Source of the DNA: an uncultured bacterium
GTDB lineage: Bacteria > Hydrogenedentota > Hydrogenedentia > Hydrogenedentales > CAILVY01
DNA: 64,000 nt
Assembly (NCBI GenBank): GCA_937951485.1
Contig: CALEDJ010000009.1
Span: 84,155-148,154 of the forward strand
Reading direction: 5' to 3'
Below the pieces are notes generated by a model. It did no database searches. It saw only the letters and a program-made list of their open reading frames with translations, and was not told the DNA's origin. The translations under genes and the position numbers were made by a program. This document shows positions 25,266-58,011 of the stretch, in pieces (the stretch's first letter is position 1; each line of letters starts with the position of its first letter).

Positions 25266-28073
25266 TCATCCTCCCGCGCCGATCGCGACCGGACGGCCAC
25301 CTGATGAGGCAGTAATATCGAAGAAGCGCGCGCCGGTCGCGTCAACAATGGTCGGCGTGACGAATATCAGCAGGCTGGACTGCTTCACCTCGCGCGACTT
25401 GCCCTTGAAGAAGAAGCCGATGACCGGGATGTCGGCGATATACGGCAACTTGTGCTGCGTGTGGCTGCTCTTGTCCTGCACCAGCCCGCCCAGCACCAGC
25501 GTGTCGCCGTCATGCACGATCACATTGGTCCACACCGCCTGCCAGGAGGTGCTGGGCAGGTTGATGACGCTTTCCACGGTGTTGTCATTCACAATGGATT
25601 TCTGTGTAAACGACTTTTCGCCGGTGCGCGTACGCACTTCGGGGTTCAGCCACAAACGCACCTGATCGTTGTCGCGGATTTGCGGCGTGACCGAGAAGGC
25701 GATGCCGAAATTGAAGGAGACCGGCGTGATATTCTGCACATAGGAGGTGACGGGCGTGCCGCCGAAGCCGGCTTCGCTGGTGAACACCTGTGTATTGATG
25801 CTTGCCACGAAGTATTCGGTGGCGAAGTCGGCAATCACGGCCGGTTTGCGGTTCATGGTGGTGACGCGCGGCGCGCTCAGCAACTCGGATTCTGTCAAGG
25901 CGTCCAGGAAGTCGAATGCCACGCCCAGGCTGTCGCCGTCGCGGTTTTGCAGAATCTTGCTCGCAAACTGGAAGGTGGGCAACGCCCCCGCGGCGGCCGG
26001 ATTCACCAGTCCGGCCAAGGTGCCTTCCGTGATGGTGTTGCGGATTACGTTGCTGCCGTCCGGCCGCGTATAGAAGGGCACCGGCTCATCAACCCCGTCG
26101 GCATTGATATCATAATCGTAAGTGTAATCCTGGAGGCCGGGGATTTGCCGTGTGCGGTTGTTGAGGTCGGACAGTTTTACGTTCCACTCAAAACCGATCT
26201 TGTCCAAATCATCCACACGCACTGTTACGAATTTCGCTTCGATGCTGACCTGTTTCGGCGTGACGTCCACCTCTGCCAGCATTTTTTCGAATTCATCCAG
26301 ATTGCTCTTGGTGTTCTTGACAACCAGGACATTCGTGGCCGTATTGTAGAATTTGCTGGAAAGGACCTCGCCGGTGTATGGCTCATAGACATCCGGGAGC
26401 GATTGCAGCAGGATGTCGAGGCTGTCCAGAACGCTCATACCGGATTGCGTGGTAAACCCGCCCAATTGCTGCTGCTGTTGCTGCAGTTGTGCGGTCTGAT
26501 AGCCCGCGCCCATCCCGCGGCTCTGCATTCCTGTGCCGCTATTGCTCAGACCGAGAGCGCCAATCGTCGCAGGGGATTCGCCCACCATCTGGTCCGGGAT
26601 GGTCGTGAACAAATCGGAGATGTTGCTGATTGCGGTGACATCGCCGCCCATGCCGCCCATCATGCCGCCGCCGTAGCCGCCCATGCCGCCGCCCACAGCG
26701 CCGAAACGATTTCGCAGCACAATCTTAAACAGGGTTTCCGCGCCGGCGTTTCGCAGTTCGTAGTAACGTGTCTCAAGGGGCTCGAACGTCTCCTGGCGGA
26801 TAATCTCCGGCTTACTGACCCAGATGAATCCCGGCTGCACGGAGTAGTCCAATCCAAGGGGACGCAGCAGCGCCTGCAGCGCCTCCGCCAAGGTCACATT
26901 CTTAAGATTGATATACGGCACGATGCCGTCGGACTTGAATCCATAATAGACGTCTTGCGTCGCTCCCGACACCTGATATCCAGTCACTCCCGGCTGGGCG
27001 GGCGCGCCAAAGGGAGTAATTTGCTGTTGCTGCCCGATGCCCAGTCGCGGTTGCTGCTGTTGGAACTGCCCGGGGCGAAACTGACCCGGTGGCGCATACG
27101 GCGCCGCCTGGGGATAAGCCCCGGGCATTGGCGCGCCGGGCGCCGGCGGCGCACCGGGCGTCGCGACCGGCTGGGGTTTCCGTGGCGGTTCCACGGCTCG
27201 CAGGTCTATGACGATGTTGATGCCCCAACTGTCGGCGATGAATTCCACGATATCGTTGATGTGGATATCTTCAAACTCGACGCTGACCGGCGATTCCAGG
27301 GTGCGTTCGATCTCCGACTTGATCACCGCGGGGGCATATTCTTCTTCAATTTCGGGCACCGCGAGCCGGTATTGCTTTATGCCGGTGGCATCGGCGCCTT
27401 CCGGCAACCGTTTCTGCTGCTCGATGAAATCGCGGATCATCGCGCGGTCTTCCTTCACCACCAATCGTGATTCCCGCATGGAATCCTCGCGCGCGCCCAA
27501 GGTGGCCTTGTGCAGCCCTTTCCGCGCTTCCTGATTGTTGGGATCAATCAGCAATACGTTGCTGTAAATGCCGACAGCCTCCTGGAAACGGTCGGCTTCG
27601 AGGTAGCGCGCCGCATCCCGGAGAAGCACCTTCACCCGTTCGCGTTTGATTTCCTCCGCGCTCAGGGGCGGGGTTTCGCCGGGGCCGGGCAGCGACTCAG
27701 GATCGAAGGTTTCAAAAGTGGGGATTTCGGGCGGCCCCTCCTGGGCGGCGCTTAACTGAAGTTTTGCATTGCACTTTTCCTGGAATGCGCGCGCCTCTTC
27801 AAGCCCGGGATCAAGCGCCAGCGCCCGGTTGAATTCCGTCAGCGCTTCCCGATACAAGTCGCGTTTGTAGAGGGCCACGCCCCGCCGCAGATATTCCTGC
27901 GCATCGGCGACTGCCGGTGCGCCGAATCCGGTTTCGGCGGGCATGCCTTCTTCCGCGATCAGGGCGGAGACCGCCGCCGTTTCAGGCGTTTCTTGACCCG
28001 CCGCAAGTGGCGTCAAGAGCAAAAGAGCCGCCACCCATTGCGCGGTGACGCTTCGCAGGTAGCCGGTACGCAT
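25266..28073 (-). CDS. TPR-containing secretin (GspD/PilQ-like)
   Basis: The product has 935 residues. The start at 28073 (MRTGYLRSV) has GGGAGGG ten bases upstream and gives a signal peptide ending PLAAG. Order: two TPR-like helix pairs (about residues 58-110 and 155-205: LRRGVALYKRDLYREALTEF, YLEADRFQEAVGIYSNVLL), an STN/N0-type domain (FEDIHINDIVEFIADSWGIN), a Pro/Gln/Gly-rich linker (about 325-390), N-domains with a Gly/Met-rich insert (GGGMGGYGGGMMGG), and a C-terminal secretin domain (LSAPRVTTMNRKPAVI, then GDTLVLGGLVQDKS). It forms the multimeric outer-membrane gate of the secretion or pilus machine. Last gene of the pilMN-pilO-pilP-secretin unit. Family call secure; GspD versus PilQ is not resolved. 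Confidence 0.92.
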   Translation of the reverse strand: MRTGYLRSVTAQWVAALLLLTPLAAGQETPETAAVSALIAEEGMPAETGFGAPAVADAQEYLRRGVALYKRDLYREALTEFNRALALDPGLEEARAFQEKCNAKLQLSAAQEGPPEIPTFETFDPESLPGPGETPPLSAEEIKRERVKVLLRDAARYLEADRFQEAVGIYSNVLLIDPNNQEARKGLHKATLGAREDSMRESRLVVKEDRAMIRDFIEQQKRLPEGADATGIKQYRLAVPEIEEEYAPAVIKSEIERTLESPVSVEFEDIHINDIVEFIADSWGINIVIDLRAVEPPRKPQPVATPGAPPAPGAPMPGAYPQAAPYAPPGQFRPGQFQQQQPRLGIGQQQQITPFGAPAQPGVTGYQVSGATQDVYYGFKSDGIVPYINLKNVTLAEALQALLRPLGLDYSVQPGFIWVSKPEIIRQETFEPLETRYYELRNAGAETLFKIVLRNRFGAVGGGMGGYGGGMMGGMGGDVTAISNISDLFTTIPDQMVGESPATIGALGLSNSGTGMQSRGMGAGYQTAQLQQQQQQLGGFTTQSGMSVLDSLDILLQSLPDVYEPYTGEVLSSKFYNTATNVLVVKNTKSNLDEFEKMLAEVDVTPKQVSIEAKFVTVRVDDLDKIGFEWNVKLSDLNNRTRQIPGLQDYTYDYDINADGVDEPVPFYTRPDGSNVIRNTITEGTLAGLVNPAAAGALPTFQFASKILQNRDGDSLGVAFDFLDALTESELLSAPRVTTMNRKPAVIADFATEYFVASINTQVFTSEAGFGGTPVTSYVQNITPVSFNFGIAFSVTPQIRDNDQVRLWLNPEVRTRTGEKSFTQKSIVNDNTVESVINLPSTSWQAVWTNVIVHDGDTLVLGGLVQDKSSHTQHKLPYIADIPVIGFFFKGKSREVKQSSLLIFVTPTIVDATGARFFDITASSGGRPVAIGAGG

Positions 28074-28140
28074 TGGAGTGTTTCCCTCCCGGTGTTTTCG
28101 CGAACTATACCCAAATCGGCACACGTGACTCAAACTCCCC

Positions 28141-28659
28141 TTATTCTTTCGATAGGGTGAAGCGCCTCGCATAGCGCTCCGCATAGACCACTACAGTGTT
28201 GCTCTCCGGATCGATTTCCTGCAATTCATATTCCTCGAACTGCTCTCCTTCGTCATACCATCTTCTTTTGACGGACATCGTGCTCAGTTGCGCCCGAAGG
28301 CGTCCCCCCACCTCCCGTATTGCGTGCAGGCTCAATCCCAAATCTTTGGGCGTTATCTCCTTCTGCTGTTCGCCTCCCTGCGCTCTGGCATGGTACCAGA
28401 AAGGATTGCGATTGTATAGTCCCGCATAGGCGCCCGGCAAATCGCTCGGCATACGGGTGCGCGGCTGCGGCGGAACGAACGAGGGGTCCACGTCTTCCAG
28501 ACTCTTCTTTGGAAACTCCAGCCGCTTTTCCGGCGGCGGCGGCGGCGGATAGAACACCTCGTAGGCCCGATAGCACAAAATGCAGAACATGGCCGCCAGC
28601 ACCATGCGCTCCTTGGCGTTCCAAAGCCATTTTCCGATTTTCAGCAGTTTGTCAACCAA
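28141..28659 (-). CDS. GspC/PilP-like inner-membrane linker protein
   Basis: The product has 172 residues. Start codon is TTG, supported by AGGAAG six bases upstream. One transmembrane helix (about residues 18-34, MVLAAMFCILCYRAYEVF) is followed by a Pro run (PPPPPPE) and a soluble domain of about 110 residues with strands GLSLHAIREVGGRLRA and ESNTVVVYAER. This topology, cytoplasmic stub, single helix, Pro-rich periplasmic linker and small beta domain, is that of GspC homology-region or PilP proteins that connect the inner-membrane platform to the secretin. Position directly upstream of the secretin gene supports the role. Sequence identity alone would not place it. Confidence 0.6.
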   Translation of the reverse strand: MVDKLLKIGKWLWNAKERMVLAAMFCILCYRAYEVFYPPPPPPEKRLEFPKKSLEDVDPSFVPPQPRTRMPSDLPGAYAGLYNRNPFWYHARAQGGEQQKEITPKDLGLSLHAIREVGGRLRAQLSTMSVKRRWYDEGEQFEEYELQEIDPESNTVVVYAERYARRFTLSKE

Positions 28660-28704
28660 GCGGAACTTCCTGCAACGCTGCGGCGCATCGCGCCGGCGTC
28701 TGCC

Positions 28705-28730
28705 CTAGTTGGTATACCTAGTTGGTGTAC
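28705..28730. repeat. 13-bp tandem duplication at the pilO-like stop codon
   Basis: CTAGTTGGTATAC followed directly by CTAGTTGGTGTAC (one mismatch). On the minus strand each unit contains CCAACTAG, so the TAG stop of the upstream gene and its last two codons are duplicated. Confidence 0.7.
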
Positions 28731-29728
28731 AACACATAGCGTTTGAACCATTTCCACATTTTACCAAAAAACCCCGGCTCTTGATACTGCTGCGCCCGGC
28801 GGCGTTCCCGCATCCCCTGGTCATCGAAGACCTGCGAAGCGCGCGGTTGCATCATGCCCGGCGGAGCCACGCCTATCATGCCCGGAACTCCCGGGGCGCC
28901 CTGCGCGGCGGCCAATTGTTCCGGCGCGGCCGGCGCCTGGCGCGGTTCATAGCGCGCCATCGTCAACAGCATTTCCACATTCAACTGCGGGTCCACGTTG
29001 TAGGCGATATACGGATAGGTGATGCGCAATCCATCAATCGTGAAATAGCGGTCCGCTGTTCGCAGTTGTTCATCAATGAACCGGACCAGGTCCCGCGCAC
29101 CCATGGAGAACGCCAAACCGACCGTCTGCTTGCGCAACAACTCGTCTTCGATGCGCTGGGGCCATATCGCCACGCGGCTGATGCGCGTGGCCTTTGCATC
29201 CAGCATCATTTCACACACGCGAATGCCGAAGGCCAACCGGCTGAGCGCCTCGGAGACCAAGGCTTCATTCACGTCAATCCCGGCCCAGTCGTCCACAGTG
29301 GGCACGCCCAGTTCCGCGCGGATGTCCGGCGGAAACAGGTCATAGCGTCCCATCCGCTCCACCACTTTCTGGTACAGCGCCAAAATCATTTTGTTGGATT
29401 GCTCGTCGTACCAGAACTTGAGGATGGGGCCTTCCTGGGGCGGCCGTTCATGGACAAACCATCCTGCGAAGTTGAAATAACGCCCGCGCTCCGTCACGGC
29501 GTCGGTCCAAGGCTGGATTTGTGCGCGCCATTCGCGCGTGAGCATATCGGGATCCACCCCGGCAAAGGCCTGCCGCAACTCCTCGTAGGTGCGGTCCAGC
29601 ATCTGCTTCAACTCTTCGTCCCGGCGGTAACTGGCCAGTTTTTCCCTGAAATAGAACTGATATACCGCGGCATATGCGCCCAACACGGCAAATAACACAG
29701 CCGCATATATAATACGTACTTTGGTCAT
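28718..29728 (-). CDS. PilO/GspM-like assembly protein
   Basis: The product has 336 residues. An N-terminal transmembrane helix (residues 5-22, RIIYAAVLFAVLGAYAAV) is followed by a coiled-coil-like charged stretch (EKLASYRRDEELKQMLDRTYEEL), a large soluble part, and a basic amphipathic C-terminus (KMWKWFKRYVLY). The middle region (RISRVAIWPQ, then VRFIDEQLRTADRYFTIDGLRI) resembles the ferredoxin-like fold of PilO/GspM. It overlaps the pilMN stop by four bases (ATGA), so it is translationally coupled. Longer than typical PilO (about 200 residues) because of extra helical segments and a Pro/Gly/Met-rich region near 265-300. Assignment rests on topology and position. Confidence 0.6.
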   Translation of the reverse strand: MTKVRIIYAAVLFAVLGAYAAVYQFYFREKLASYRRDEELKQMLDRTYEELRQAFAGVDPDMLTREWRAQIQPWTDAVTERGRYFNFAGWFVHERPPQEGPILKFWYDEQSNKMILALYQKVVERMGRYDLFPPDIRAELGVPTVDDWAGIDVNEALVSEALSRLAFGIRVCEMMLDAKATRISRVAIWPQRIEDELLRKQTVGLAFSMGARDLVRFIDEQLRTADRYFTIDGLRITYPYIAYNVDPQLNVEMLLTMARYEPRQAPAAPEQLAAAQGAPGVPGMIGVAPPGMMQPRASQVFDDQGMRERRRAQQYQEPGFFGKMWKWFKRYVLYTN

Positions 29729-31899
29729 TGTATGGGCAGGCTTCCCGGCGGCGCCGCCGGAGCGGGCGGCCTTGTTCTGTCTGCAAACTGCACGACGATG
29801 GTGAAGGAATACACGCTTCGATCATAAGCCGGATTGTACACGCCGCCCGTGTCTCGCGCAGTACGCGGACCCATGTCGTCCAGGGGCGCATCATACAGCG
29901 TTTCCCAGGGATAGCGTTGCACGCTCGCTTCACTGAACAGTACTTGAGTCACTTTCAAGACCTGCCCATTCGGAAAGGTCCGCTCGGCCTTGCGCAAAGC
30001 CGCCACAAAATCTTTGATGACCACGTCGGATTCCGAGAATCCGAAGACTTTCAGCGCATTCGGTTTCGCAATGGGGGGGGCTTGTTGTGGATCCACGCCG
30101 CCCCTGCGGGCCGCCGCACGTCCGCCGAAACCTCCTGCGTCGCCGCCGGCCGGGCCGAACCCTCTGAAGCCGGCGCCGCCCGGCGCCGCGCCGCCAATGC
30201 CACCACGAGGATCCACCCCCGGAAACCCGCTGATGGGAACACCGAAGGCCCCAATGCCGCCACGGCCAATGCCGGCCTGGGGAGCAAGACTACCCCTGCC
30301 GAAACTGGCGCCCAGGCGGGGTCTTTCCTCATCCTGGAATTGAGGAACGCTCATGGGTTGTTGGGGCATGCCCCCGAAGCGCTGTCCGGGCGCCTGTCCG
30401 GCATCTTCCTGGCCGACGCGGACGGTTTCAATGGAACTGAACCACATTTGCGGGCCGGTGGTGGGGCGCAACTCATTGATCAAATCTATTTCATCCAGCC
30501 AGAACATGCGGCTCTCACGGGCGCGGTCGAGAATCTCCACATCGCGCTGCAGCGCGCGGATCACGCCCTGGGCTTCCATGAAACGCGCCCGGTACGCCGA
30601 ATTCGGCGGGGACGTCATCTCGGGGCGGATGCGCTGGGCCATTTCCGGGTCGTATGCGCGGATAACCGTCTTCAACTGCTCAATACGCGCCTGCACCGCC
30701 TTGTTGTCATTGGCGCTGACCGGAATGATGGAGGCCATCACCACGGCCAACGCGGCCAGCGAAATCGCCCAATAGACCGCCTGTTGCTTGCGGCGCGCCA
30801 TTTCCAAGACGCGCGGCGGGATGAGATTGAGTTCTATCGGGGGGGGCTCACAGGTGCGCAACGCCAGCCCCAGGACCACACACGCCTGTTCCGGTCGCTC
30901 ACTTACCTGCTGCGCGGCGGGGGAGATGGCCAGGCCGGCGAGCGGTTGCGCGATACGCACTTCCACGCCCAGTTGCCGCTGCATGTAGGGGATGATGTTG
31001 CGCAGGCAGGCGCCGCCGCCGCAAAGGATCACCCGGTTCACCTGGCCGCCGCCGGGCAGCGACCGAAAATAGGAAAATGAACGCAGGATTTCCGAGACCA
31101 TGCGCTGGAGCACATTGCCAATCACCTCGCCGCCCTTGCCGTCGCGCTTGGGGTCGCCCGTCGGGGCGAAGCCGCGCTCCCGCTTCAGTTTCTCGGCATC
31201 GCTGAAATTCACGCCCAGCGCCGAGGCCAGCGCCTGTGTGATGTCATTGCCGCCGATATTCAACGGCCGGGTGAAACGAAACTGATTTTCCCGCTCGATC
31301 ACAATGTCCGTGGTCGCCGCGCCCATGTCTATTAACGCGACGCAATCCCCCTGGTCGCCGAATTCGCCCGTGGTCTTGAGCCAATTGTAGGCGGCAATAG
31401 GGCTTACATCCACCACGTCAATGCTGCACTTGGCCTCCAGGAGGATGTCCATGTGCTTTTCAACCACATCCACCTTGATGGCGGCCATCATCACATCGTA
31501 GCCGCCCGCTTCGGTGCGGTCGAGCACCTGGTAGTCCATGGCGATCTGGTCCAGCGAGAAGGGGATTTGCTGCTGGATTTCGTAGCGGACGATCTGGTTG
31601 ACCTTATATTCCGGAACAGGCGGCAGGGTGCGGCTGCGCGTGAAAACCGACTGGCCGGGCACGCCGAATATCACCTTGCGCGTGCGTACCTTTGCCTCCT
31701 TGAGCAACTGCGCCAGGGCTTTGCGTTTCAGATTCTTGCGCACCTCCTCGTCCAGCGAGGGGTCCGCATTGAATTCCCGCTGATAGTATTTGGTGAGTTG
31801 ATACCCGGACTTGGTCTGGGCCAACTCGCACAAGCGAATCGCGCTCGCGCCAATGTCCAACACCAGTCGCTTTTTACGGCTTCGCAACAGATTGGCCAT
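29725..31899 (-). CDS. PilM-PilN fusion (GspL-like) with Gly-rich insert
   Basis: The product has 724 residues. Residues 1-350 form an actin-like PilM: LDIGASAIRLCEL, the PPVPEYKVNQIVRYEIQQQI segment, CVALIDMGAATTDIVI, NIGGNDITQALA and VILCGGGACLRNI. At 355 the PilN hallmark IELNLIPPR begins, then one transmembrane helix (about 375-394) and a periplasmic coiled region. Residues 504-602 are a Gly/Arg/Pro-rich insert before a C-terminal ferredoxin-like domain (EASVQRYPW at 657-665). PilM recruits the ATPase from the cytoplasm and PilN anchors it; normally they are separate proteins, fused in GspL. AGG lies seven bases before the ATG. First gene of its operon, with a consensus promoter at 32049-32077. 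Confidence 0.88.
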   Translation of the reverse strand: MANLLRSRKKRLVLDIGASAIRLCELAQTKSGYQLTKYYQREFNADPSLDEEVRKNLKRKALAQLLKEAKVRTRKVIFGVPGQSVFTRSRTLPPVPEYKVNQIVRYEIQQQIPFSLDQIAMDYQVLDRTEAGGYDVMMAAIKVDVVEKHMDILLEAKCSIDVVDVSPIAAYNWLKTTGEFGDQGDCVALIDMGAATTDIVIERENQFRFTRPLNIGGNDITQALASALGVNFSDAEKLKRERGFAPTGDPKRDGKGGEVIGNVLQRMVSEILRSFSYFRSLPGGGQVNRVILCGGGACLRNIIPYMQRQLGVEVRIAQPLAGLAISPAAQQVSERPEQACVVLGLALRTCEPPPIELNLIPPRVLEMARRKQQAVYWAISLAALAVVMASIIPVSANDNKAVQARIEQLKTVIRAYDPEMAQRIRPEMTSPPNSAYRARFMEAQGVIRALQRDVEILDRARESRMFWLDEIDLINELRPTTGPQMWFSSIETVRVGQEDAGQAPGQRFGGMPQQPMSVPQFQDEERPRLGASFGRGSLAPQAGIGRGGIGAFGVPISGFPGVDPRGGIGGAAPGGAGFRGFGPAGGDAGGFGGRAAARRGGVDPQQAPPIAKPNALKVFGFSESDVVIKDFVAALRKAERTFPNGQVLKVTQVLFSEASVQRYPWETLYDAPLDDMGPRTARDTGGVYNPAYDRSVYSFTIVVQFADRTRPPAPAAPPGSLPIQ

Positions 31900-32048
31900 G
31901 GCTTTACCTATCTATCCCTTCTTCTTCCCGGCGCACGCTCCACGTCCGGGAAAATCCGCTGCCTTGTCCGGTAACGATTCCTCTCTGGCAACATGGTGAA
32001 TACTGTGAAGACGCTGATACTCCCCGGTTTCGTAAACCCTTGGAAAGT

Positions 32049-32077
32049 ATTGTAGTATAGAACAAAACCCTTGTCAA
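32049..32077 (-). promoter_or_regulatory. near-consensus promoter of the pilMN-secretin operon
   Basis: Minus strand: TTGACA (32072-32077), 17-base spacer, TACAAT (32049-32054). The start would be near 32042, giving a leader of about 140 bases with AT-rich DNA upstream. Confidence 0.75.
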
Positions 32078-32158
32078 GACTTAAAGTTGTTTGACAATAA
32101 TTTCCCATTGCATGCATGGCCGCCCCGGTGCGGCGCAGAAGGTCCTTTCAAAAGGCTG

Positions 32159-33550
32159 CTATTTTTCCACATCCTTTACGCAACGGAAGCCATAGTCGGC
32201 GCGTTGCGCATCCATGCGATCGAAATGCCGTCGGGCGCAACGGGCGTGAAAGCGTCCGGTCATGTAGGAACCGCCGCGCAGCACGCGGTACACCTGCCCA
32301 TAGTCCTTGGTGACGAGGGTGTTTCCGGGATAGGCTTCGTACCAGTCGGCCACCCATTCATAGACATTGCCCGCCATATCGAGGCAGCCGTAGGGCGAGG
32401 CACCGCCCACGAAGCGCCCCACCGTCGTCGGACCGCCGAGTTCCAGTTCTGTCGTGTTGCAGAGAGACTTGTCAAAATCAGCGCCCCACGGATATTCCCG
32501 CCCGTCTTCGCCGCGCGCCGCCTTTTCCCACTCCGCTTCGGTGGGAAGCCGTTTGCCCACGGCCTGTGCGTACTGCGTGGCCTGTGTCCACGAGACGCCC
32601 GCAACCGGAAATTGCTCCTTGCCCTTCGGGAAGGTGTGCCCGGGGAAAACCTTTTTGAACTGTTCGTTGGTCACTTCATGCCGGTCAATATAGAATGCGT
32701 CGAGGAAGACTTCACGCTTGGGGCTTTCATCGGGAGAACGTCCGTCTTCGCCCATCAGAAACAGACCGGCGGGAATCAGCACCATGCCGGGCGGCACTTC
32801 GCCCTGGCGCATGCGCAAGGTCACGGATTTTTCGGCATTCGGCTCCAAAACCACCCGCTCGTCTTCCTGGATGAAGCCCTTGGAATGCACGCTGACGAGA
32901 TAGAGTCCCGGAGAGAGCCGGAAGCGCGCGGGCGTCTTGCGGTCCTGCAGTTGGTTATTCAGCCATATCCGGGCGCCCGTCGGCTGCGAAAGCACCGAGA
33001 GCGTCGCTTCCATGGGACGCAGCCGGTGCTTGAATTCATACTGAAAATCCTCCTGGACACTCAGGGTTTCACGCACAGGGTGATGGTTCGCCAGACGCAA
33101 TTCATACACATGTTCACCGATGGGCAGCGGGATGCGGAACATGGGCGTTCTCCCGACGATTTCCCCGTTCACCAGAATCTCCGCGCCGCTTGGTTCCGAT
33201 TCCAGGGTGAGATGGCCCACCAGCGGATCCATTACCAATACAAAGGTTTCTTCCATCCCCTCCTTCACCAGAATACGCTCAGTGGCCCGCCGATAGTTCT
33301 CTTTCCGCACCAGGACATCCACCCAGCCCGCCCGCACCCCTTCGATGGTCACCGGGGTCACGCCGCATTCGACGCCGTCCAGAAGCACGTGCGCGCCCTG
33401 TTCGGGCGCGCTGTCAATGGTGACGCGCGTTTTGGGAACATCCCGCCCGGGGCCGCCGCAAGCCGCCAGCACCGCAATCGCCAACACTACGGCCAGCCCC
33501 CTGCTGGCGCCGCGCGCCGGGATTGCGGTGTGCCCCGCTGCATATGCCAT
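32159..33550 (-). CDS. PEGA-domain lipoprotein with formylglycine-enzyme-like domain
   Basis: The product has 463 residues. The start at 33550 has GGAAGGA eight bases upstream. Lipobox VLAAC (Cys31) indicates lipid anchoring. Three PEGA-type beta domains follow (about residues 42-110, 112-180, 185-250: APEQGAHVLLDGVECGVTPV, SEPSGAEILVNGEIVGRTP, SQPTGARIWLNNQ), typical of surface or peptidoglycan-associated stalks. Residues about 255-463 are a SUMF1/FGE-sulfatase domain: GMVLIPAGLFLMGEDG, EVTNEQF, PVAGVSWTQATQYAQAVGKRLPTEAEWEKAARG in succession, GNVYEWVADWY, RVLRGGSY and GFRCV. Most such bacterial domains bind ligands and do not convert sulfatase Cys; the catalytic Cys pair was not verified. 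It lies between the two pilus gene units, so it may be an accessory surface protein. Confidence 0.85.
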   Translation of the reverse strand: MAYAAGHTAIPARGASRGLAVVLAIAVLAACGGPGRDVPKTRVTIDSAPEQGAHVLLDGVECGVTPVTIEGVRAGWVDVLVRKENYRRATERILVKEGMEETFVLVMDPLVGHLTLESEPSGAEILVNGEIVGRTPMFRIPLPIGEHVYELRLANHHPVRETLSVQEDFQYEFKHRLRPMEATLSVLSQPTGARIWLNNQLQDRKTPARFRLSPGLYLVSVHSKGFIQEDERVVLEPNAEKSVTLRMRQGEVPPGMVLIPAGLFLMGEDGRSPDESPKREVFLDAFYIDRHEVTNEQFKKVFPGHTFPKGKEQFPVAGVSWTQATQYAQAVGKRLPTEAEWEKAARGEDGREYPWGADFDKSLCNTTELELGGPTTVGRFVGGASPYGCLDMAGNVYEWVADWYEAYPGNTLVTKDYGQVYRVLRGGSYMTGRFHARCARRHFDRMDAQRADYGFRCVKDVEK

Positions 33551-33621
33551 GTCTGGCGTCCTTCCGTCGGCTCCGCCTCTCATGCGCGACAGGAGGCACG
33601 TATCGCCTCCCGCCCCTTGTT

Positions 33622-49645: not shown

Positions 49646-49654
49646 GACGCGCTC

Positions 49655-50086
49655 CTATAACTCGGTCACATAGGTGACAAATTTTTCCTCGCGCCCGTCG
49701 AACAACTGGACGCTGAAGGTGATCCGATACAAATCCGTGCCCAGGGCGCCGCCGCTCACGCGCTGCACCGACGCGCTCCAGCCCTCGTACATGGAATAGG
49801 CCCGCTGCGCCTCGGTCAGGCTGCGCACGGCGTTTTGCCGCGCCCAGTCCCGCATCCACGGCTGGAACTGGTCCTGGCTGTACACGCCGCCCGCGCGCAC
49901 CCGGCCCAGTTCCATCCGCGCCAATTGCGCCACCGTTGTCCGCTGCGCCGCCCGGTGCGACTGCTGCAGCGACATCGGAAACAGCCGCATGATCGCCACG
50001 ATGCCCACCCCCAGTATCAACAACGCCACCAGCACCTCCACCAGGGTGAAACCGCCGCGTGATGTCTCGTTGCGATGTTTTCTCAT
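49655..50086 (-). CDS. GspI-like minor pseudopilin
   Basis: The product has 143 residues. The start at 50086 overlaps the gspH stop (ATGA). Leader RKHRNETSRGG precedes FTLVEVLVALLILGVGIVAI with Glu5. The rest (RMELGRVRAGG and a C-terminal RITFSVQLFDGREEKFVTYV strand pair) fits GspI. Inner-membrane pseudopilin that nucleates the tip with GspJ and GspK. Confidence 0.8.
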   Translation of the reverse strand: MRKHRNETSRGGFTLVEVLVALLILGVGIVAIMRLFPMSLQQSHRAAQRTTVAQLARMELGRVRAGGVYSQDQFQPWMRDWARQNAVRSLTEAQRAYSMYEGWSASVQRVSGGALGTDLYRITFSVQLFDGREEKFVTYVTEL

Positions 50087-50898
50087 GACGCCACCTTTAC
50101 GCGCCCCGTCGCCCGGTATATCTCGATGGGAATGTGCATCAGGTTCGACAAGGTCCGCTCCCCTTCCGGGTTGACCAGCCGCAGGTCCGGCGATTCGTTC
50201 GGCGACGGCGCCACCAGGATCACATAGCGTTCTCTGTCGCCTGCTGCCAACTGGCCCGACGGCTGAAACACATGGGCCGGCATCCACGCATACACGCCGC
50301 AGGGGTCCCCGGTGTAAGGCCCGCCGTCGATCCAGACCTTCACCGGTTTCAGTCCCATCGCGCCGACTTGCGTGTCGGCGGCTTCGAGGCGCGGCCGGAT
50401 TCCCGCATCCACCACAGACAGGTATTCATCATCCATGAAGAAAGGAATCACCATCCGTCCCGGGAACTCCTGAAACACACTGTCCGGACGGTGCATGGAC
50501 ACGTAGTCCCCTTTATAGGGATCACGGGGATACGCGTACATGATTGCCGCGGCGCGCAATACGCGCACCATCTGCCCCGAAACGCTGTCCATCACCGGTG
50601 CGGCCAATCCCGGGACATTCGTGTTATCGGGTCCGAAACAAGTGTCCAGCGGGTCCACCCAGTTATCCATGACATATACCACGGCGGTGTCCACGCGGTA
50701 CGTGGCGGCATAGATGCGGGCGGCCTTGAGCATGCTGTGGACGGTGCGGGCGGTGTTGCGCAGTTCACTGCGGGAAAACATGCCGAGCCGGGAAAAGGCG
50801 GGAACGGCCACCACCGCCATGATGGCGATAATGGAAATCACCACCAGCAGTTCCGGCAGCGAGAGGCCGGCCGCCCTCTGTTTTCCCTTATTCATCAT
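50083..50898 (-). CDS. GspH-like pseudopilin
   Basis: The product has 271 residues (two adjacent ATGs, 50898 or 50895). RAAGLSLPELLVVISIIAIM carries the type IV pilin cleavage site and Glu5. ARTVHSMLKAARIYAATYRV matches the helix after the anchor in GspH/FimT. Loop regions are long. It overlaps gspI by four bases and follows gspG by 70 bases that contain two hairpins. Confidence 0.75.
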   Translation of the reverse strand: MMNKGKQRAAGLSLPELLVVISIIAIMAVVAVPAFSRLGMFSRSELRNTARTVHSMLKAARIYAATYRVDTAVVYVMDNWVDPLDTCFGPDNTNVPGLAAPVMDSVSGQMVRVLRAAAIMYAYPRDPYKGDYVSMHRPDSVFQEFPGRMVIPFFMDDEYLSVVDAGIRPRLEAADTQVGAMGLKPVKVWIDGGPYTGDPCGVYAWMPAHVFQPSGQLAAGDRERYVILVAPSPNESPDLRLVNPEGERTLSNLMHIPIEIYRATGRVKVAS

Positions 50899-50911
50899 TA
50901 TCCGCCTCGTG

Positions 50912-50959
50912 CCACGGGCGCCAGGCCCGTGGTATCGTTGCCATGGGCAAAATGCCCAT
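50912..50959. repeat. two adjacent hairpins between gspG and gspH
   Basis: CCACGGGC-GCCAG-GCCCGTGG (50912-50932) and ATGGGC-AAAAT-GCCCAT (50943-50959). On the minus strand they sit between the gspG stop and the gspH start; no T-run follows in that direction. They could be mRNA-processing or attenuation hairpins, or intergenic repeats of the GCCACGGGC kind. Confidence 0.55.
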
Positions 50960-50968
50960 CCCTGTTTT

Positions 50969-51817
50969 TTAATTATACAGGCGCTCCCAACTGCGCGCGC
51001 TGTCCCAGTTGTTGATGTCGTCGCCGCCGCCCATGTAAATCAAATCCTGTTCCTGCCTGTAGTATTGGGACGGATCACCGGTATAGCCGGTGTTTCGATA
51101 GATTGCCTGGCCGCTGATCATGTTTTCGCCGAAGGACCAGATAAAAGCCAGCATGTCGCGCGGCGCGGCAAAGCCGATTTCAATCGGTTGCCCGGTCACC
51201 TCATCAATCACCCGGTAATCACCATCAGGTCTTTGGGAAAAGGTCAGCGTGTCTTTTCGCGCCGCGCCGCCGGAACCGGGAAGGTTCTGGTCGTTGGGAG
51301 GCACTTGATAGATGCGGAAAATCGGTGGATTGATGTCCACGTTGCCCTCCATTCTTCGGCCGGGCCACGGCCCCGGGTAAATCTGATAAAGATTGCCCCA
51401 GGGATCGCGGCGGATGTCCGCCAGATAACTCGTGCCCAGGCGGCTTATCACGTTGGCGTCCAGAATTCCGGCGATATCGGGGTCTGCATCCGTCAGGGCC
51501 GCCCGGCCGGTGCGCAGCAACGCATAGAAGGCATTGGTATAAAGGCCAAGGGCGGCATTAATATTGGACAGATCCCCGATTCTATTTTTCACCGCTTCGG
51601 AATTGAACAACTGGTGCAGGCTGCTCCGGTCGGCATCGGCGAGCATGCCGGTGAGCGCGAGTTCAATACTCTTCACCTCCGCCAGCGCGCGCGTCATGCG
51701 CGACTTGCGGATATACTTGGCCACGTTGGGCACGACGATGGACGCCAGGATGGCGATAATCGCCATCACGACCAGCAACTCCACCAACGTGAAGCCTTTT
51801 TGACGTTTTCTGAACAT
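50969..51817 (-). CDS. gspG: major pseudopilin, GspG-like
   Basis: The product has 282 residues, twice the usual GspG. FRKRQKGFTLVELLVVMAII has the prepilin cleavage site after Gly8 and Glu5 of the mature form. The core signature YLADIRRDPWGNLYQIYPGP is the GspG calcium-loop region. The C-terminal half (from about residue 165) is an extension with a Tyr-rich end. AAGGAG lies eight bases upstream of the ATG. In T2SS the GspG fibre pushes substrates through the secretin; in T4P-like systems the same class makes thin pili. Confidence 0.88.
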   Translation of the reverse strand: MFRKRQKGFTLVELLVVMAIIAILASIVVPNVAKYIRKSRMTRALAEVKSIELALTGMLADADRSSLHQLFNSEAVKNRIGDLSNINAALGLYTNAFYALLRTGRAALTDADPDIAGILDANVISRLGTSYLADIRRDPWGNLYQIYPGPWPGRRMEGNVDINPPIFRIYQVPPNDQNLPGSGGAARKDTLTFSQRPDGDYRVIDEVTGQPIEIGFAAPRDMLAFIWSFGENMISGQAIYRNTGYTGDPSQYYRQEQDLIYMGGGDDINNWDSARSWERLYN

Positions 51818-51987
51818 GTTTGCGTCTCCTTCTTTGGCCGCCCCCTTTGGCGCGGGCGCCGCATCTGCCTGGTTACACTCCTGGTTGCCCGGATATTCCT
51901 GACAATTCCAATTCTAATGCTTCAACTATGCGAATCCCTGCGTTGCCGCACGGGTCACGGTTGCTTGCAACGCCGCCACCGCCCGCC

Positions 51988-53226
51988 TCACATGCCGCTG
52001 ATCTGGTCGCCGAGGGTGAAGATGGGCAGGTAAAGGGATACAACGATGAATCCGATGACGCCGCCGAGAAAAACAATGATGGCCGGTTCGAGCAGGGTCA
52101 GCATGGCCTCGACCGCCGCTTCGACCTCCGCGTCGTAGATGTCGGCGACTTTCATGAGCATGGCGTCGAGATTACCGGTCTCCTCCCCGACGTCAATCAT
52201 GTTGACGACCATGGCGGGGAAGACCTTGGTCTCATCGAGCGGCGCGGCGATGGTGTCGCCTTCCTTGATGCTGTCGTGCACCTTGTCCACGGCGTCCTGG
52301 ATGATTTCATTGCCGATGGTTTCCTTGGTGATCTTGAGCGCCTGGAGGATGGGCACGCCGGAGGTGATCAGGGTGCCGAGGGTGCGCGCGAAGCGGGCCA
52401 CCGCCACCTTGGTGACGAGGTCGCCGATGAGGGGGATTTTCAGGACGACACGGTCCCAGGTGCGGCGGACGGCATGGACCTTCATGATGAGTTTAAAGGC
52501 GATGATGGTCCAGCCGACAATGGCGAGCAGCATCCACCAGTTATAGACCATGAAATCGCCGGCGGCGATAAGGAATTGCGTGGGCGCGGGCAGTTCGCCG
52601 CCGAATTCACGGAAAATGTCGGCGAAAACAGGCACCACCTTCACCAACAAAAAACTCACGATGCCGGTGGCGATGATAATGACCGCGATGGGGTAGATGA
52701 GCGCCCCCTTGACCCGACGCTTGAGGGCTTCCCGGCGCTCCATGAAGACCGCAAGCCGGTTGAGCACCACTTCGAGCATACCGCCCACCTCGCCGGCGCG
52801 GACCATGTTCACGAAGAGCCGGTCGAACTGCTTGGGGTGCTTGGCCAGCGCCTCGGAAAAGGTGGATCCGGACTGGATGTCAGAAGATATCTCCCGCAGG
52901 ATGTCGCGCAGTTTACACGGTTTCAACTGGGCGATGAGCACGTTGAGTGACCGCAGCAACGGCAGTCCAGCGTCAATCAGCGTGGACAACTGGCGGGTCA
53001 TCACCACGATTTCTTTGTTCTTGACCCCGCCGAAGTAGAGTTCATTCAGGCCCCGCTTTTCCCTGCGGGCGCGGCGTTCGTCGCTCTTGCGCGCCTCGCG
53101 CACGCTGGTGGGGTAGAGTCCCAGCGTGCGCACATCGTTGATGGCGAGCGCCTGGCTTTCCGCCTGCACAATCCCGAAGACTTCTTGGCCTTCCTTGTTC
53201 AGCGCCTTGTAAGCATACTTGGGCAT
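51988..53226 (-). CDS. gspF: inner-membrane platform protein GspF/PilC
   Basis: The product has 412 residues. Starts MPKYAYKALNKEGQEVFG, followed by two T2SSF domains (TRQLSTLIDAGLPLLRSLNVL and a second ARTLGTLITSGVPILQALKI) and three membrane helices, the last being PAIIVFLGGVIGFIVVSLYL. GEVGGMLE and GEETGNLD are the paired family motifs. It transmits ATPase rotation to pilin insertion. AAGGA lies seven bases before the ATG; gspE-1 is 19 bases upstream. Confidence 0.95.
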   Translation of the reverse strand: MPKYAYKALNKEGQEVFGIVQAESQALAINDVRTLGLYPTSVREARKSDERRARREKRGLNELYFGGVKNKEIVVMTRQLSTLIDAGLPLLRSLNVLIAQLKPCKLRDILREISSDIQSGSTFSEALAKHPKQFDRLFVNMVRAGEVGGMLEVVLNRLAVFMERREALKRRVKGALIYPIAVIIIATGIVSFLLVKVVPVFADIFREFGGELPAPTQFLIAAGDFMVYNWWMLLAIVGWTIIAFKLIMKVHAVRRTWDRVVLKIPLIGDLVTKVAVARFARTLGTLITSGVPILQALKITKETIGNEIIQDAVDKVHDSIKEGDTIAAPLDETKVFPAMVVNMIDVGEETGNLDAMLMKVADIYDAEVEAAVEAMLTLLEPAIIVFLGGVIGFIVVSLYLPIFTLGDQISGM

Positions 53227-53245
53227 AGCCGTTTCCTTCGCTGCG

Positions 53246-55006
53246 TCAGTCGTCGTATTTGTCAGTGTGCGCGATCACTTCTTCCGCGCTGGTCACGCCC
53301 TGCACGCACTTCATCATGCCCTCTTCCCGCAGCGTGCGCATGCCCTGATGCTTGCGCGCGTATCGGCGGAGATCAAAGGACAGGGCGCGGTCGAGAATCA
53401 TCTCGCACACCGTTTCGTCCACCATCATCATTTCAAAAAGGCCGGTGCGGCCCATGTAACCGATGTAGTCACAGGCCGGACAGCCCTTGGCCTTGAACAT
53501 GCGCAGATTCGGGTCTTCGCGCCATTTCCTGGGCACGCCGAGCAGTTCCATCTCGTCCTCGTCGGGCTGGTAGCGCACGCGGCAGTGGCGGCAGAGCACG
53601 CGCACCAGGCGCTGCGCCAGGACCGCCTCCAGCGAGGCCGTGATCAGGAACGGCTCGACATCCATGTCCAGCAGGCGCGTGATGGTTTCGGGCGCGCTGT
53701 TGGTGTGGAGCGTGCTCAGCACGAGGTGGCCGGTAAGCGATGCCTCGACCGCGATCTGGGCGGTTTCCAGGTCGCGGATTTCGCCCACCATCACGATGTC
53801 GGGGTCCTGACGCAAAATGGAGCGCAGACAGCGCGCAAAGGTGAGGCCTATCTCTTCGTTCACGTGGCACTGGATGATCCGGTCTATCTGCAATTCCACC
53901 GGGTCCTCGGTGGTGATGATCTTCACTTCTTCAGTATTTAAGGTGTTCAGGCAGGCGTAAAGGGTGGTGGTCTTTCCAGAACCCGTCGGCCCCGTCACGA
54001 GCATGATGCCGTTGGGCTTGTTGATGACCGTAGTGATTTTTTCGAGAATGTCCGGACTGAAGCCCAGTTTGTCCAGATCAATTTTGACGGCGGTCCGGTC
54101 GAGAATGCGCATCACCACGCCTTCGCCGAAGAGCGTCGGCAAGGTCGCCACGCGCACGTCAATCACGGTGTCGCCCACCTTCAATTCAATGCGCGCGTCT
54201 TGCGGCAGGCGGCGCTCGCCGATGTCCATGTTGGAGATGATCTTGACGCGGGAGACCAGGGCGATCGCAAGCATCTTGGGCGGACTGACGATCTCGTGCA
54301 GCACGCCGTCAACGCGGATACGGATACGGAATTCCTCTTCATAAACCTCGAAATGGATATCCGAGGCGCGCTTCTGCACCGCTTCCAAAAAGACGAGGTT
54401 GACAATCTTGATTACTTCGGGCTGCTGCGCCAGTTCCACGAGGTTGTCAATGTCGCTGACCACCTCCTGCAACCCCAATTCCTCCATGGTCAGTTCGGCG
54501 GTGCCCACCTTGTCCTTCAGGTCTTCGAGCATCTCGTGAATCGAGTCGGTCTCAAAGGAATAGTTCGCTTTCCAGGCCGCCTCCACGTCCTTGGCGTTGC
54601 TTACCGCGCCGCGCACATGCTGGCCCGTGATTTGTTGAAGATCGTCGAGTATCTGAAGGTTTAACGGGTCGGCCATCGCGACGATCAGGGTGCCGTCCAC
54701 CTCGCGCACGGGAATCACATTGTAAAATTTCGCCACGTCGGGCGTGATTTTCCGGATGATATTCTCGGGAATCTTTATCCGGCTGATATCAATCCGTTCC
54801 ATACCCGCCTGGACGCCGAGCGCCTCGATGATGTCCTGCTCCTCGCAGTATCCCATCGAAACCAGCACCCGGCCCAGCAGGTCACCGGTCAGGCGCTGGC
54901 GCTGAAGCGCTTCGTCCAGTTGCAGCGGCGTGATGACGCCCTGCTCCACCAGCAGATCGCCGATCTGACGCTGTGTCGTTCGCCTTGGTTGTTGTGCTAC
55001 CGCCAT
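53246..55006 (-). CDS. gspE: assembly ATPase GspE/PilB (first copy)
   Basis: The product has 586 residues from the ATG at 55006 (AGGCGG eight bases upstream); a GTG at 55015 is the alternative. N-terminal MshEN-like tandem motif (QIGDLLVEQGVITPLQLDEA, then LLGRVLVSMGYCEEQD), N2 domain, then the ATPase: Walker A GPTGSGKTTTLYACL, Asp box EDPVELQIDRIIQ, Walker B DPDIVMVGEIRDLETAQIAV and His box HLVLSTLHTN. Zinc tetracysteine CRHC, then CPAC. It drives pseudopilus or pilus assembly from the cytoplasmic face. Differs from the 56164-58011 copy in the N-terminal domain and linker. Confidence 0.93.
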   Translation of the reverse strand: MAVAQQPRRTTQRQIGDLLVEQGVITPLQLDEALQRQRLTGDLLGRVLVSMGYCEEQDIIEALGVQAGMERIDISRIKIPENIIRKITPDVAKFYNVIPVREVDGTLIVAMADPLNLQILDDLQQITGQHVRGAVSNAKDVEAAWKANYSFETDSIHEMLEDLKDKVGTAELTMEELGLQEVVSDIDNLVELAQQPEVIKIVNLVFLEAVQKRASDIHFEVYEEEFRIRIRVDGVLHEIVSPPKMLAIALVSRVKIISNMDIGERRLPQDARIELKVGDTVIDVRVATLPTLFGEGVVMRILDRTAVKIDLDKLGFSPDILEKITTVINKPNGIMLVTGPTGSGKTTTLYACLNTLNTEEVKIITTEDPVELQIDRIIQCHVNEEIGLTFARCLRSILRQDPDIVMVGEIRDLETAQIAVEASLTGHLVLSTLHTNSAPETITRLLDMDVEPFLITASLEAVLAQRLVRVLCRHCRVRYQPDEDEMELLGVPRKWREDPNLRMFKAKGCPACDYIGYMGRTGLFEMMMVDETVCEMILDRALSFDLRRYARKHQGMRTLREEGMMKCVQGVTSAEEVIAHTDKYDD

Positions 55007-55027
55007 GGGATACACCGCCTATGCCTG

Positions 55028-56152
55028 TTACATTGCCTTTGCCGCCTTCGGGCCGCCTGGCGCGCCTGCGCCCGGGCCGCCCTCCAGCCCCAGCGCCCGC
55101 GCATTCTGCTCGAATTCATCCGGCAATTGCGCCTTCACCGCCACATCTTCATATTTGCAAATGCCTTTGCGATAAAGCAGCAGCAGATGCTCGTCAAGCA
55201 GGTTCATGCCGTACTTGTGGCCGGTTTGAATCGCCGACGTGATACGGTAAGACTTGTTTTCGCGAATCAGGTTCTGAATGGCGGGCGTGCTGATCATGAT
55301 TTCAAAGGCCGCCACGCGGCCGAAACCGCTCTTGCGCGGAATCAGCGTCTGCGAAATCACCGCTTTCAGGTTGCCTGACAACTGCGTCCGGATTTGCTCC
55401 TGCTGGTTGGTGGGGAAGGCGTCCACAATGCGGTCAATCGTGCGGACCGCGCCCGTCGTATGCAGCGTGGCGAAAACGAGGTGGCCCGTTTCCGCTGCGG
55501 TGATGGCCGCTTCGATCGTTTCCAGGTCGCGCATTTCACCCACCAGGATCACGTCGGGGTCCATGCGCAGCGCCCGCCGCAACGCCTCGGCGAAGGTGGG
55601 CACGTCCACCCCCACTTCGCGCTGATTGACGATGCTTTTCTTGTGCGTGTGGTAGTATTCGATGGGGTCTTCAATCGTGATGATGTGCTGGTCCAGGTTG
55701 GTGTTGATCCAGTCAAGCATCGTTGCCAGCGAGGTCGTTTTTCCCGACCCGGTAGGCCCCGTCACCAGAATCAGCCCGCGCGGCAGTTCCAGCAGTTTCT
55801 TGATGTGCTCAGAAAGACCCAGTTCCTCGAAGGTCAGAATCTTGCGGGGGATCAACCGCAGCACCAGCCCCACATATCCGCGCTGGCGGAAAATGGATAC
55901 GCGGAAACGGGCCACGTCTTCAAACGCAAAGCCGAAGTCCGCACCGCCCACCTCCTGCAGTTCCTGCTGGTTGTCCACCGAAGCGATGCTCTTCATCAGA
56001 CGCTCGGTATCCTCCGGGGTGAGGGGGTCGTCGCCGAAAAAATGCAGCCGTCCATGCACACGGCCCACCGGGGGATTGTCCACCGACAGATGCAGGTCTG
56101 ACCCTTCCCGGTCAATGAGCATCCGCAACAAACTCACCATTTCATACGCCAT
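55028..56152 (-). CDS. pilT: retraction ATPase PilT
   Basis: The product has 374 residues. N-terminal PAS-like region (GSDLHLSVDNPPVGRVHG), Walker A GPTGSGKTTSLATML, Asp box EDPIEYYHTHKK, Walker B DPDVILVGEMRDLETIEAAI, His box TGHLVFATLHTTGA, and the PilT signature AIQNLIRENK (AIRNLIRE in E. coli-type PilT). A zinc motif is absent, as expected. PilT depolymerises type IV pili and is not part of a classical T2SS, so its place between two assembly ATPases argues for a dynamic pilus. The C-terminus is Gly/Pro/Ala-rich. Ribosome binding site AGGAG eight bases upstream of the ATG. Confidence 0.95.
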   Translation of the reverse strand: MAYEMVSLLRMLIDREGSDLHLSVDNPPVGRVHGRLHFFGDDPLTPEDTERLMKSIASVDNQQELQEVGGADFGFAFEDVARFRVSIFRQRGYVGLVLRLIPRKILTFEELGLSEHIKKLLELPRGLILVTGPTGSGKTTSLATMLDWINTNLDQHIITIEDPIEYYHTHKKSIVNQREVGVDVPTFAEALRRALRMDPDVILVGEMRDLETIEAAITAAETGHLVFATLHTTGAVRTIDRIVDAFPTNQQEQIRTQLSGNLKAVISQTLIPRKSGFGRVAAFEIMISTPAIQNLIRENKSYRITSAIQTGHKYGMNLLDEHLLLLYRKGICKYEDVAVKAQLPDEFEQNARALGLEGGPGAGAPGGPKAAKAM

Positions 56153-56163
56153 AAGTCGTTCTC

Positions 56164-58011
56164 CTAGACCGCTGCCGCCGCTTTCCGGTGCAGGGGCTCG
56201 TCCACCCGCGTGCGCCGGTTGACTTCCTCGATTGTGGTGATTCCGTTCAACGCCTTTCGCCAGGCGTCCTCGCGCATGGTTACCATGCCATCCAGCCGCG
56301 CCTGCCGCCGGATGGCTGTGGCCGACTCGCCGCGCATCAGCATCTCTCGGATTTTATCCGTCGTCAACAGCAACTCATACGCGCCCAAGCGCCCCTGATA
56401 GCCTGTCTGGTTGCAGTTGTCACAGCCCGCCCCATGGTACAGCGTCACCCTATCCAAGTCCACATGGAAACCGAGCCGTTTCAATTCAAAATCCGATACC
56501 TCCGTCGGCTCCTTGCAGGCCGTGCAGATCGTCCGCAACAGGCGCTGCGCGAGAATCGCCCGCACGCCCGAGGCCACCAGGAAAGGCTTGATCCCGATGT
56601 CAATCAGGCGGATAAACGAACTCGCCGTGTCGTTGGTGTGCAACGTCGAAAACACCAGGTGGCCCGTCAGCGCCGCCTTGATGGCAATCTCCGCCGTCTC
56701 CAAGTCGCGAATCTCGCCCACCATTACGATGTCGGGGTCCTGCCGGAACATCGCGCGCAGCGCGCGCGCGAAATCCCACCCGATCTCGTGGTTGATCTGC
56801 ACCTGATTGATGCCGGTCAACTGATATTCCACCGGGTCCTCGACAGTGATGATTTTGCGGTGGGGCTGGTTCAGCGTATGCAGCGAAGCGTACAGCGTGG
56901 TCGTCTTGCCCGAACCCGTCGGCCCTGTCACCAGCACCACCCCCGTCGCATGCTTCAACAGCGCCTCCCAGTTCCGCTGCTCTTCGGGGCTGAAGCCCAA
57001 CTGGCCAAGACCCAGCATCAGCCCGCTCTTGTCCAGAATACGCATCACCACGCTTTCCCCATAAACCGACGGCAACGCGCTCACGCGCAGGTCAATCAAC
57101 TTCTGATTGATGGTCATCTTGATGCGGCCGTCCTGCGGCACCCGCTTCTCGCTGATGTCCATCCCCGACATGATCTTCAGACGCGAGATGATCGCGGCCT
57201 GGGCGCGTTTGGGCGGCAACGGCATCAAATGCATGACGCCGTCAATCCGATACCGCACCTTCACATCCGTCTTGCCCGGCTCCACGTGAATATCGCTCGC
57301 GCGCAGCCGGAACGCCTCCAGAATCATCTGATGCACATACCGCACCACCGGATTGTCCTGATCCTCCTCATCCACCCCGTCCATCGAAATTTTGCCCTTC
57401 TCCTCCTCCACCCCGTCCAGTCCAATGCTGCTCATGCTGATGTCGCTCGCGCTCATGCTTCCCATGCTGCTGAGCGAACTCTCCAGCGACCCCACATTCG
57501 ACATCGAACTCAGCGTGCTCATGGTGCTTGCGCTGCTCGCCGTCGAAAGCATCGTCTCCACCGTCGTCTCCTGCAATCCGTAATATTTGTTCAGCGCAAA
57601 CGAAATATCCTCAGGCATCGCCAGCACCGGCTCCACCGGACGGTCAATCAGACGGGACAAATTGTCCAGATTGTTGATATTCGTCGGGTCCGCCGTGGCC
57701 ACCACCAGCGTCTTGCCTCGCTCTTCCACCGGGATCACCCGGTACAGCGTCGCAATCCCGCCGTCCACCAGACTGCGGATCCGCTCCGGTATCTCCCGCT
57801 CGGACAATTTGATGATGGGAATGCCCAACTGATCCGCAAGCCCTTCCGTGATGTGGCTCTTACTGATATGCCCCAAACGGACCAGAATTTCCCCCAGTTT
57901 CCGGTGGGCCATCGTCGTCTGTTGCTTGTGAATCGCTTCATCCAACTGCTGCTGCGTGATGATGCCGCGTTCCACCAGCCGCTTGCCGAAAAGCGCATAG
58001 CCGCCTTGCAT
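56164..58011 (-). CDS. assembly ATPase GspE/PilB (second copy)
   Basis: The product has 615 residues. MshEN-like tandem motif (ALFGKRLVERGIITQQQLDE, then KLGEILVRLGHISKSHITEG); a Ser/Met-rich low-complexity linker at about residues 152-198; ATPase with Walker A GPTGSGKTTTLYASL, EDPVEYQLTGINQVQ, Walker B DPDIVMVGEIRDLETAEIAI and HLVFSTLHTND; Zn motif CTACK, then CDNC. First gene of the large operon, with GAGGTGAG before the ATG. Two assembly ATPases in one operon suggest either two fibre types or a division between pilus and secretion modes. Confidence 0.93.
   Translation of the reverse strand: MQGGYALFGKRLVERGIITQQQLDEAIHKQQTTMAHRKLGEILVRLGHISKSHITEGLADQLGIPIIKLSEREIPERIRSLVDGGIATLYRVIPVEERGKTLVVATADPTNINNLDNLSRLIDRPVEPVLAMPEDISFALNKYYGLQETTVETMLSTASSASTMSTLSSMSNVGSLESSLSSMGSMSASDISMSSIGLDGVEEEKGKISMDGVDEEDQDNPVVRYVHQMILEAFRLRASDIHVEPGKTDVKVRYRIDGVMHLMPLPPKRAQAAIISRLKIMSGMDISEKRVPQDGRIKMTINQKLIDLRVSALPSVYGESVVMRILDKSGLMLGLGQLGFSPEEQRNWEALLKHATGVVLVTGPTGSGKTTTLYASLHTLNQPHRKIITVEDPVEYQLTGINQVQINHEIGWDFARALRAMFRQDPDIVMVGEIRDLETAEIAIKAALTGHLVFSTLHTNDTASSFIRLIDIGIKPFLVASGVRAILAQRLLRTICTACKEPTEVSDFELKRLGFHVDLDRVTLYHGAGCDNCNQTGYQGRLGAYELLLTTDKIREMLMRGESATAIRRQARLDGMVTMREDAWRKALNGITTIEEVNRRTRVDEPLHRKAAAAV

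Follow-up and report, generated by a model that had tools for sequence, protein, structure and literature searches.

A 15-gene type IV pilus family run with a predicted giant tip pilin in Candidatus Hydrogenedentota

The minus strand between positions 25266 and 58011 of the window, which is the whole 64,000-nucleotide stretch of Candidatus Hydrogenedentota DNA analysed here, contains a run of 15 genes of the type IV pilus family. The window lies on contig 9 of an assembly of 4.5 Mb in 77 contigs. The machine is best filed with the type IVa-pilus lineage rather than with the T2SS, with some T2SS-like traits, and it probably builds a retractable pilus whose giant tip pilin (K) would present a large surface protein (JR) for attachment to, and pulling on, surfaces or insoluble polymers. 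The machine is well supported, and the function is what we infer from its sequence. The giant size and the phylum-wide conservation of the tip are striking; the motor and gate are familiar. A sequence-only reading of the window had listed the genes of this region, and all of them are present, as indicated by profile matches and prepilin N-termini. In order of transcription, the run is composed of the following genes:

56164..58011, minus strand: PilB-type assembly ATPase 1 (PilB-1), 615 aa, with an MshEN c-di-GMP domain (T2SSE, E 1.4e-135)
55028..56152, minus strand: PilT retraction ATPase, 374 aa (TIGR01420, 462 bits)
53246..55015, minus strand: PilB-type assembly ATPase 2 (PilB-2), 589 aa, with an MshEN domain (T2SSE, E 1.1e-136)
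51988..53226, minus strand: GspF/PilC inner-membrane platform (T2SSF, 9e-66)
50969..51817, minus strand: major pilin G, GspG type (DPWG and GGGDDINNWD motifs, Glu5)
50083..50898, minus strand: minor pilin H (prepilin N-terminus, Glu5)
49655..50089, minus strand: minor pilin I, PilV/GspI type (prepilin N-terminus, Glu5)
48248..49645, minus strand: minor pilin J, 465 aa (prepilin N-terminus, Glu5)
39667..48000, minus strand: giant K, predicted GspK-type tip pilin, 2777 aa (pilin helix without Glu5, GspK blocks)
33890..39043, minus strand: giant putative surface protein JR, 1717-aa ORF (Sec-type hydrophobic leader, repeated N-terminal modules)
32159..33583, minus strand: PEGA(x3)-FGE lipoprotein (FGE-sulfatase domain and three PEGA domains, lipobox LAAC)
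29725..31899, minus strand: PilM-PilN fusion, 724 aa (PilM_2, 6e-48; NLIPPR motif)
28718..29728, minus strand: PilO-like protein (position, size and topology only)
28141..28659, minus strand: PilP-like protein (position and topology only)
25266..28184, minus strand: secretin with N-terminal TPRs (secretin domain, 2e-34)

The listed ORF for the I gene (49655–50287) begins too early, with a probable start near 50089, and the true starts of JR and the secretin are probably downstream of their listed ORF starts.

The first three genes of the run encode the motors. ATPase 1 exhibits higher scores to PilB chains in the PDB than to GspE chains (490 and 398 bits), and the same is seen for ATPase 2 (492 and 441 bits). 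The NCBIfam PilB model gives the best score for both proteins (635.6 and 607.2) under its cut-off of 675.65; for ATPase 1, the scores of 635.6 with TIGR02538 and 578.8 with TIGR02533 are both below the cut-offs of the models. The Walker A, Walker B and zinc-finger cysteine motifs are retained in both proteins by inspection. In the ATPase tree, whose deep branches around the reference sequences are long and poorly resolved, ATPases 1 and 2 both fall outside the T2SS GspE clades of the phylum, ATPase 2 forms a clade distinct from ATPase 1, and PilT joins the PilT references. The PilT score with TIGR01420 exceeds the cut-off of 319, and orthologues are found across the phylum (61 of 68 genomes), which upholds the earlier suggestion that PilT points to pilus dynamics. 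The platform protein passes the GspF model TIGR02120 (432.7 against a cut-off of 424) and scores higher with the PilC model NF052606 (451), but below the cut-off of that model. The assignment to the type IVa-pilus lineage is based on the retention of PilT and on ATPase scores that are nearer to PilB than to GspE.

At the other end of the run, the PilM part of the PilM-PilN fusion exhibits a TIGR01175 score of 168.8, above the cut-off of 133, and matches PilM chains in the PDB at 2e-33. The NLIPPR motif follows the PilM domain and is itself followed by a membrane helix; the PilN part has one PF05137 match (0.036). The next two gene products gave no Pfam or PDB profile match and are assigned as PilO and PilP from their position and membrane topology, and for PilO also from its size. 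The sequence-only reading had named both genes; the PilP-like gene is the TTG-start ORF at 28141–28659 instead of the one at 28253–28630. Homology of the PilO-like protein to Amuc_1100 was considered and found no support, with no hit for the PilO profile against the PDB. The secretin scores are close together for PilQ, Amuc_1098 and GspD (147, 141 and 140 bits), all below cut-off. The PEGA/FGE lipoprotein is strongly conserved beside JR (46–62% identity). Its FGE-like domain is common to the T9SS ring lipoproteins PorK/GldK, far below cut-off. A possible role for the lipoprotein is that of an outer-membrane ring protein or pilotin.

The best NCBIfam name for the major pilin G is GspG, with 46.9 bits against a cut-off of 88.85. 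Glu5 is present in all G sequences and in nearly all H, I and J sequences read; the automatic reading gave a few exceptions, one of them a misplaced match in the J of the window, which reads GFTLPE. The genome encodes one prepilin peptidase.

Tip subunits of the type IV pilus family usually have a length of about 300–400 aa. The 2777-aa frame of K is unbroken in the window and is a long open frame in most relatives, as is the 1717-aa frame of JR. The origin of the two giant frames by chance or through a frameshift artefact is ruled out, since other genera and families have them too, as conserved open frames. The N-terminus of K is composed of a prepilin peptidase site and a pilin helix, with a hydrophobic residue in place of Glu5 at position 5 in 17 of 17 motif-readable sequences. 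A pilin without Glu5 is the hallmark of a tip cap (PMC10191384). HMM-HMM comparison of K with the ordinary GspKs of the phylum and of E. coli identified three blocks in the same order. The N-terminal helix block aligns with a probability of 95.8%, while the alignments of IDEASKVNLN with IADEYGKINLN of GspK (46%, 12 columns) and of GKININTA with GRVNINTA (8%, 18 columns) are weak singly and are supported by their collinearity and by their conservation in the K alignment. These last two blocks lie near residues 620 and 2545 of K, and about 120 and 245 residues into the ordinary 402-aa GspK of the same genome. The shifted positions suggest that K is a GspK-type pilin into which stretches of roughly 500 and 1,800 residues have been inserted. 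The N-terminus matches the NCBIfam GspK model at 6.6e-8, and since the score of 32.4 bits is below the curated cut-off of 130, K is named GspK-type and not a GspK equivalog.

The second insertion of K contains a lamin-tail domain at residues 1296–1386, which is found in eight of ten members and, judging from motifs, probably spans about 1044–2030 with insertions of its own. Motifs of the Ca-loop-like form DxxDNNxNGxxDE are featured in both insertions. The K profile showed no match to PDB sequences up to E = 1, and no match to K was found in plasmids. AlphaFold models of K 2036–2777 and JR 1041–1717 are of low confidence (pLDDT 57 and 53, respectively). Fold searches provided a weak CBM-like sandwich for K 2250–2545 (best Z 7.8, generic beta-sandwich matches only) and an Ig/macroglobulin-like match for JR (Z 7.7, rmsd over 12); the generic beta-sandwich matches may reflect just a common arrangement, and other parts of the models are barely covered. 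The termini of K would form a pilin core within a giant tip.

The N-terminal half of JR consists of repeated modules that start with N-[GP]-[DG]-F-[ED] at residues 115, 492, 647 and 799 and match one another with E values of about 3e-6 and 5e-6. The "jelly-roll" description given to this protein from sequence has no support from Pfam. Between relatives, the N-terminal 1000 residues mostly exhibit 7–16% identity with 25–66% gaps, and the C-terminal part 14–31% identity. Other modules of JR in relatives include beta-helix (10 of 12), TIG (three) and CHRD (one) domains. The JR profile gave no match to PDB sequences up to E = 1. PilC/PilY1 has been described as a conserved carrier to which exchangeable effector parts are joined (PMC8179133), and by architecture only JR may be a PilY1-like partner; a relation of JR to PilY1 in sequence or fold was not found. 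A search of the genome with PF05567 (PilC/PilY1) gave no match, which is a weak test as control genomes also lacked a match.

The gene order and orientation of the run are kept in many other genera and families among the loci read, consistent with one conserved machine as first proposed. K and JR are neighbours in 14 of 14 loci where both are callable. The two genes are separated by −35 to 322 bp, except in one locus with an apparent frameshift in K, where the distance is 1198 bp. The giants are thus not unlinked in relatives, and the proposal that they belong to the machine held in this synteny check. In these loci, K ranges from 2005 to 3036 aa and JR from 992 to 2373 aa; the longest K called has 3067 aa. 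Of 40 relatives searched, 36 have an identified K and 16 an identified JR, the JR count being held down by divergence and contig ends; JR is present in one copy per genome where found. PilMN is present in 59 of 68 genomes of the phylum and in all 38 of the good ones; for the K C-terminus, the counts are 49 of 68 and 32 of 38, respectively. Genomes lacking the K C-terminus are often fragmented, and some show the K N-terminus only. In one family, the genes from PilM to the secretin are located away from those of the K half. The K alignment was also used to scan about 85,000 species genomes, with two conserved K peptides as seeds, so that giants of greater divergence elsewhere could have escaped. 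Of the 24 loci obtained, nearly all bear the title Candidatus Hydrogenedentota. The exceptions carry the titles "uncultured bacterium" and "Rhodothermaeota", one each. The entry titled "Rhodothermaeota bacterium" (VFKU01000230.1) carries a Hydrogenedentota giant K, and its title is probably wrong since its 662-residue frame is equal in length to one in a genome of the same order.

In the mechanism that we consider likely, the pilins would be processed by the prepilin peptidase encoded elsewhere in the genome, and K, lacking Glu5, would cap an H-I-J-K priming complex, so that one giant head would start each filament. JR would be exported via Sec and dock through its conserved C-terminal half on K or on the priming complex, exposing its variable N-terminal modules in a division of labour like that of PilC/PilY1; the contact between K and JR is suggested by the adjacency of their genes. 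The lipoprotein would be located at the outer membrane close to the secretin. The filament would be extended by one or both PilB ATPases, possibly under c-di-GMP control via MshEN, and retracted by PilT. This agrees with the earlier suggestion that K may belong to the tip and that JR may be its partner. A stronger form of this proposal is possible, if unlikely: the operon would represent a distinct retractable type IV lineage, found throughout the phylum, whose defining features would be a pair of assembly ATPases and a giant tip, always present, of about 4,000–5,000 residues (K and JR). Such a filament would serve to pull in large polymers or particles and would not be an ordinary adhesive pilus.

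The T2SS-like traits of the machine are the GspG-like major pilin, the fusion of PilM and PilN as in GspL and the passing of the GspF model. Together with the GspK-type K and the placement of JR, with its Sec-type leader, in the adjacent gene, these traits would fit a T2SS variant in which a short pseudopilus capped by K drives JR, and possibly also the lipoprotein, out through the secretin while PilT resets the pseudopilus. We regard this as quite unlikely. The T2SS is thought to derive from the type IVa pilus via the loss of PilT, which defines the T2SS branch (PMC10191384), yet PilT is encoded in this operon and its orthologues are widespread in the phylum. The genome also encodes a full canonical T2SS elsewhere, on contig C5 (8420–19485 of the locus read there), with D, E, F, G, H, I and J, the 402-aa GspK and a GspC-like ORF identified by reading, which makes secretion by the present machine less likely; several relatives have a canonical T2SS a few kb upstream of their giant operon. 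No GspC match was found among the operon proteins scanned, the PilP-like gene occupies the GspC place, and JR is one linked gene per genome instead of a dispersed set of substrates. The H-I-J-K minor pilins with a Glu5-less cap are a type IVa trait found here. As H-I-J-K are common to type IVa pili and T2SS (PMC10191384), the G-H-I-J-K set alone is no sign of secretion, contrary to the sequence-only reading. The term "hybrid" used there is a fair description of the traits and not evidence for two merged functions. Two further GspE/PilB-type ATPases with long tree branches are encoded outside the operon and the T2SS (contigs C38:79493–83647 and C60:1–3363) and represent further type IV filament-like systems in the genome.

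A DNA-uptake pilus, in which K or JR would bind DNA as is thought for ComZ of Thermus, is very unlikely. ComZ is a precedent for a pilin with an inserted domain (PMC8179133), type IVa pili often serve transformation, and PilT is present, but neither the operon nor the flanking genes read include competence genes, and the weak fold hints for the K model are carbohydrate-binding-like, not DNA-binding. It is extremely unlikely that K and JR form a coat or matrix left on the outer membrane, with the pilus incidental, as their giant size, the lamin-tail domain, the Ca-loop-like motifs and the distant PorK/GldK-type domain of the FGE/PEGA lipoprotein might suggest, because K is a pilin by its termini and should join the filament.

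The retractable adhesive pilus that we favour shares PilB-type ATPases, PilT, PilC/GspF, PilM, a secretin and the H-I-J-K minor pilins with the type IVa pili of Pseudomonas, Neisseria and Myxococcus. It differs from these in the two PilB-type ATPases of the operon, the M-N fusion, the GspG-type major pilin, the giant K and JR and the additional FGE/PEGA lipoprotein, and in the lack of a PilY1 match (a weak test). GspF and GspG-type components, a GspK-type tip and an M-N fusion like GspL are shared with the T2SS, from which the operon differs in the presence of PilT, in the lack of a detected GspC in the run and in the coexistence of an ordinary T2SS in the genome. The nearest relatives found are the pilus genes of Akkermansia and Verru_Chthon cassette protein A. 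Akkermansia muciniphila encodes the same kind of secretin and PilM-like cluster (Amuc_1098–1102) within its described pilus cluster (PMC10688800). The best NCBIfam model for PilMN is the Amuc_1101 PilM-like protein (264 bits), and the Amuc_1098 secretin score is close to that of PilQ, both far below cut-off. The N-terminus of cassette protein A (TIGR02600, 1,296 positions) resembles that of K; matches at E<=0.001 are found in 33 of 68 genomes of the phylum, nearly all of them N-terminal and none above the cut-off of 332 bits. A second collinear block (227–261) falls on the GR..DE..K.N motif in two relatives. The link is weak, and K is about twice the length of the model.

The operon had been put forward as an undescribed system, which, taken strictly, is not supported. 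Its motors, platform and PilM fall within the radiation of type IVa pili and T2SS, and large modular or inserted tip pilins have precedents in GspK, ComZ and S. sanguinis PilB (PMC8179133) and in Verru_Chthon cassette protein A. As in GspK, Thermus ComZ and S. sanguinis PilB/PilC, a functional domain appears to be grafted on or inserted into the tip pilin, but in K the inserted residues number more than 2,000, and the insertions are conserved across the phylum. What a type IV filament touches is determined by its tip pilin, and here that position would be taken by 2,000–3,000 residues with the pilin core kept. K makes it testable how large a cargo is tolerated by the minor-pilin priming complex and the secretin gate. 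The operon likewise makes testable whether its two PilB motors divide the work between them and whether T2SS-like traits (the GspG pilin and the M-N fusion) exist side by side with a retraction motor. A literature search found no paper devoted to the pili of Hydrogenedentota.

Elsewhere in the window, an AddA-like UvrD helicase-nuclease and an AddB-like nuclease form a pair (5858–13227) that is adjoined by a sigma-54 response regulator (13330–15003). An ABC sugar-type transporter with a solute-binding protein and two permeases (20725–23918) is adjoined by a Kdo transferase (23925–25193).
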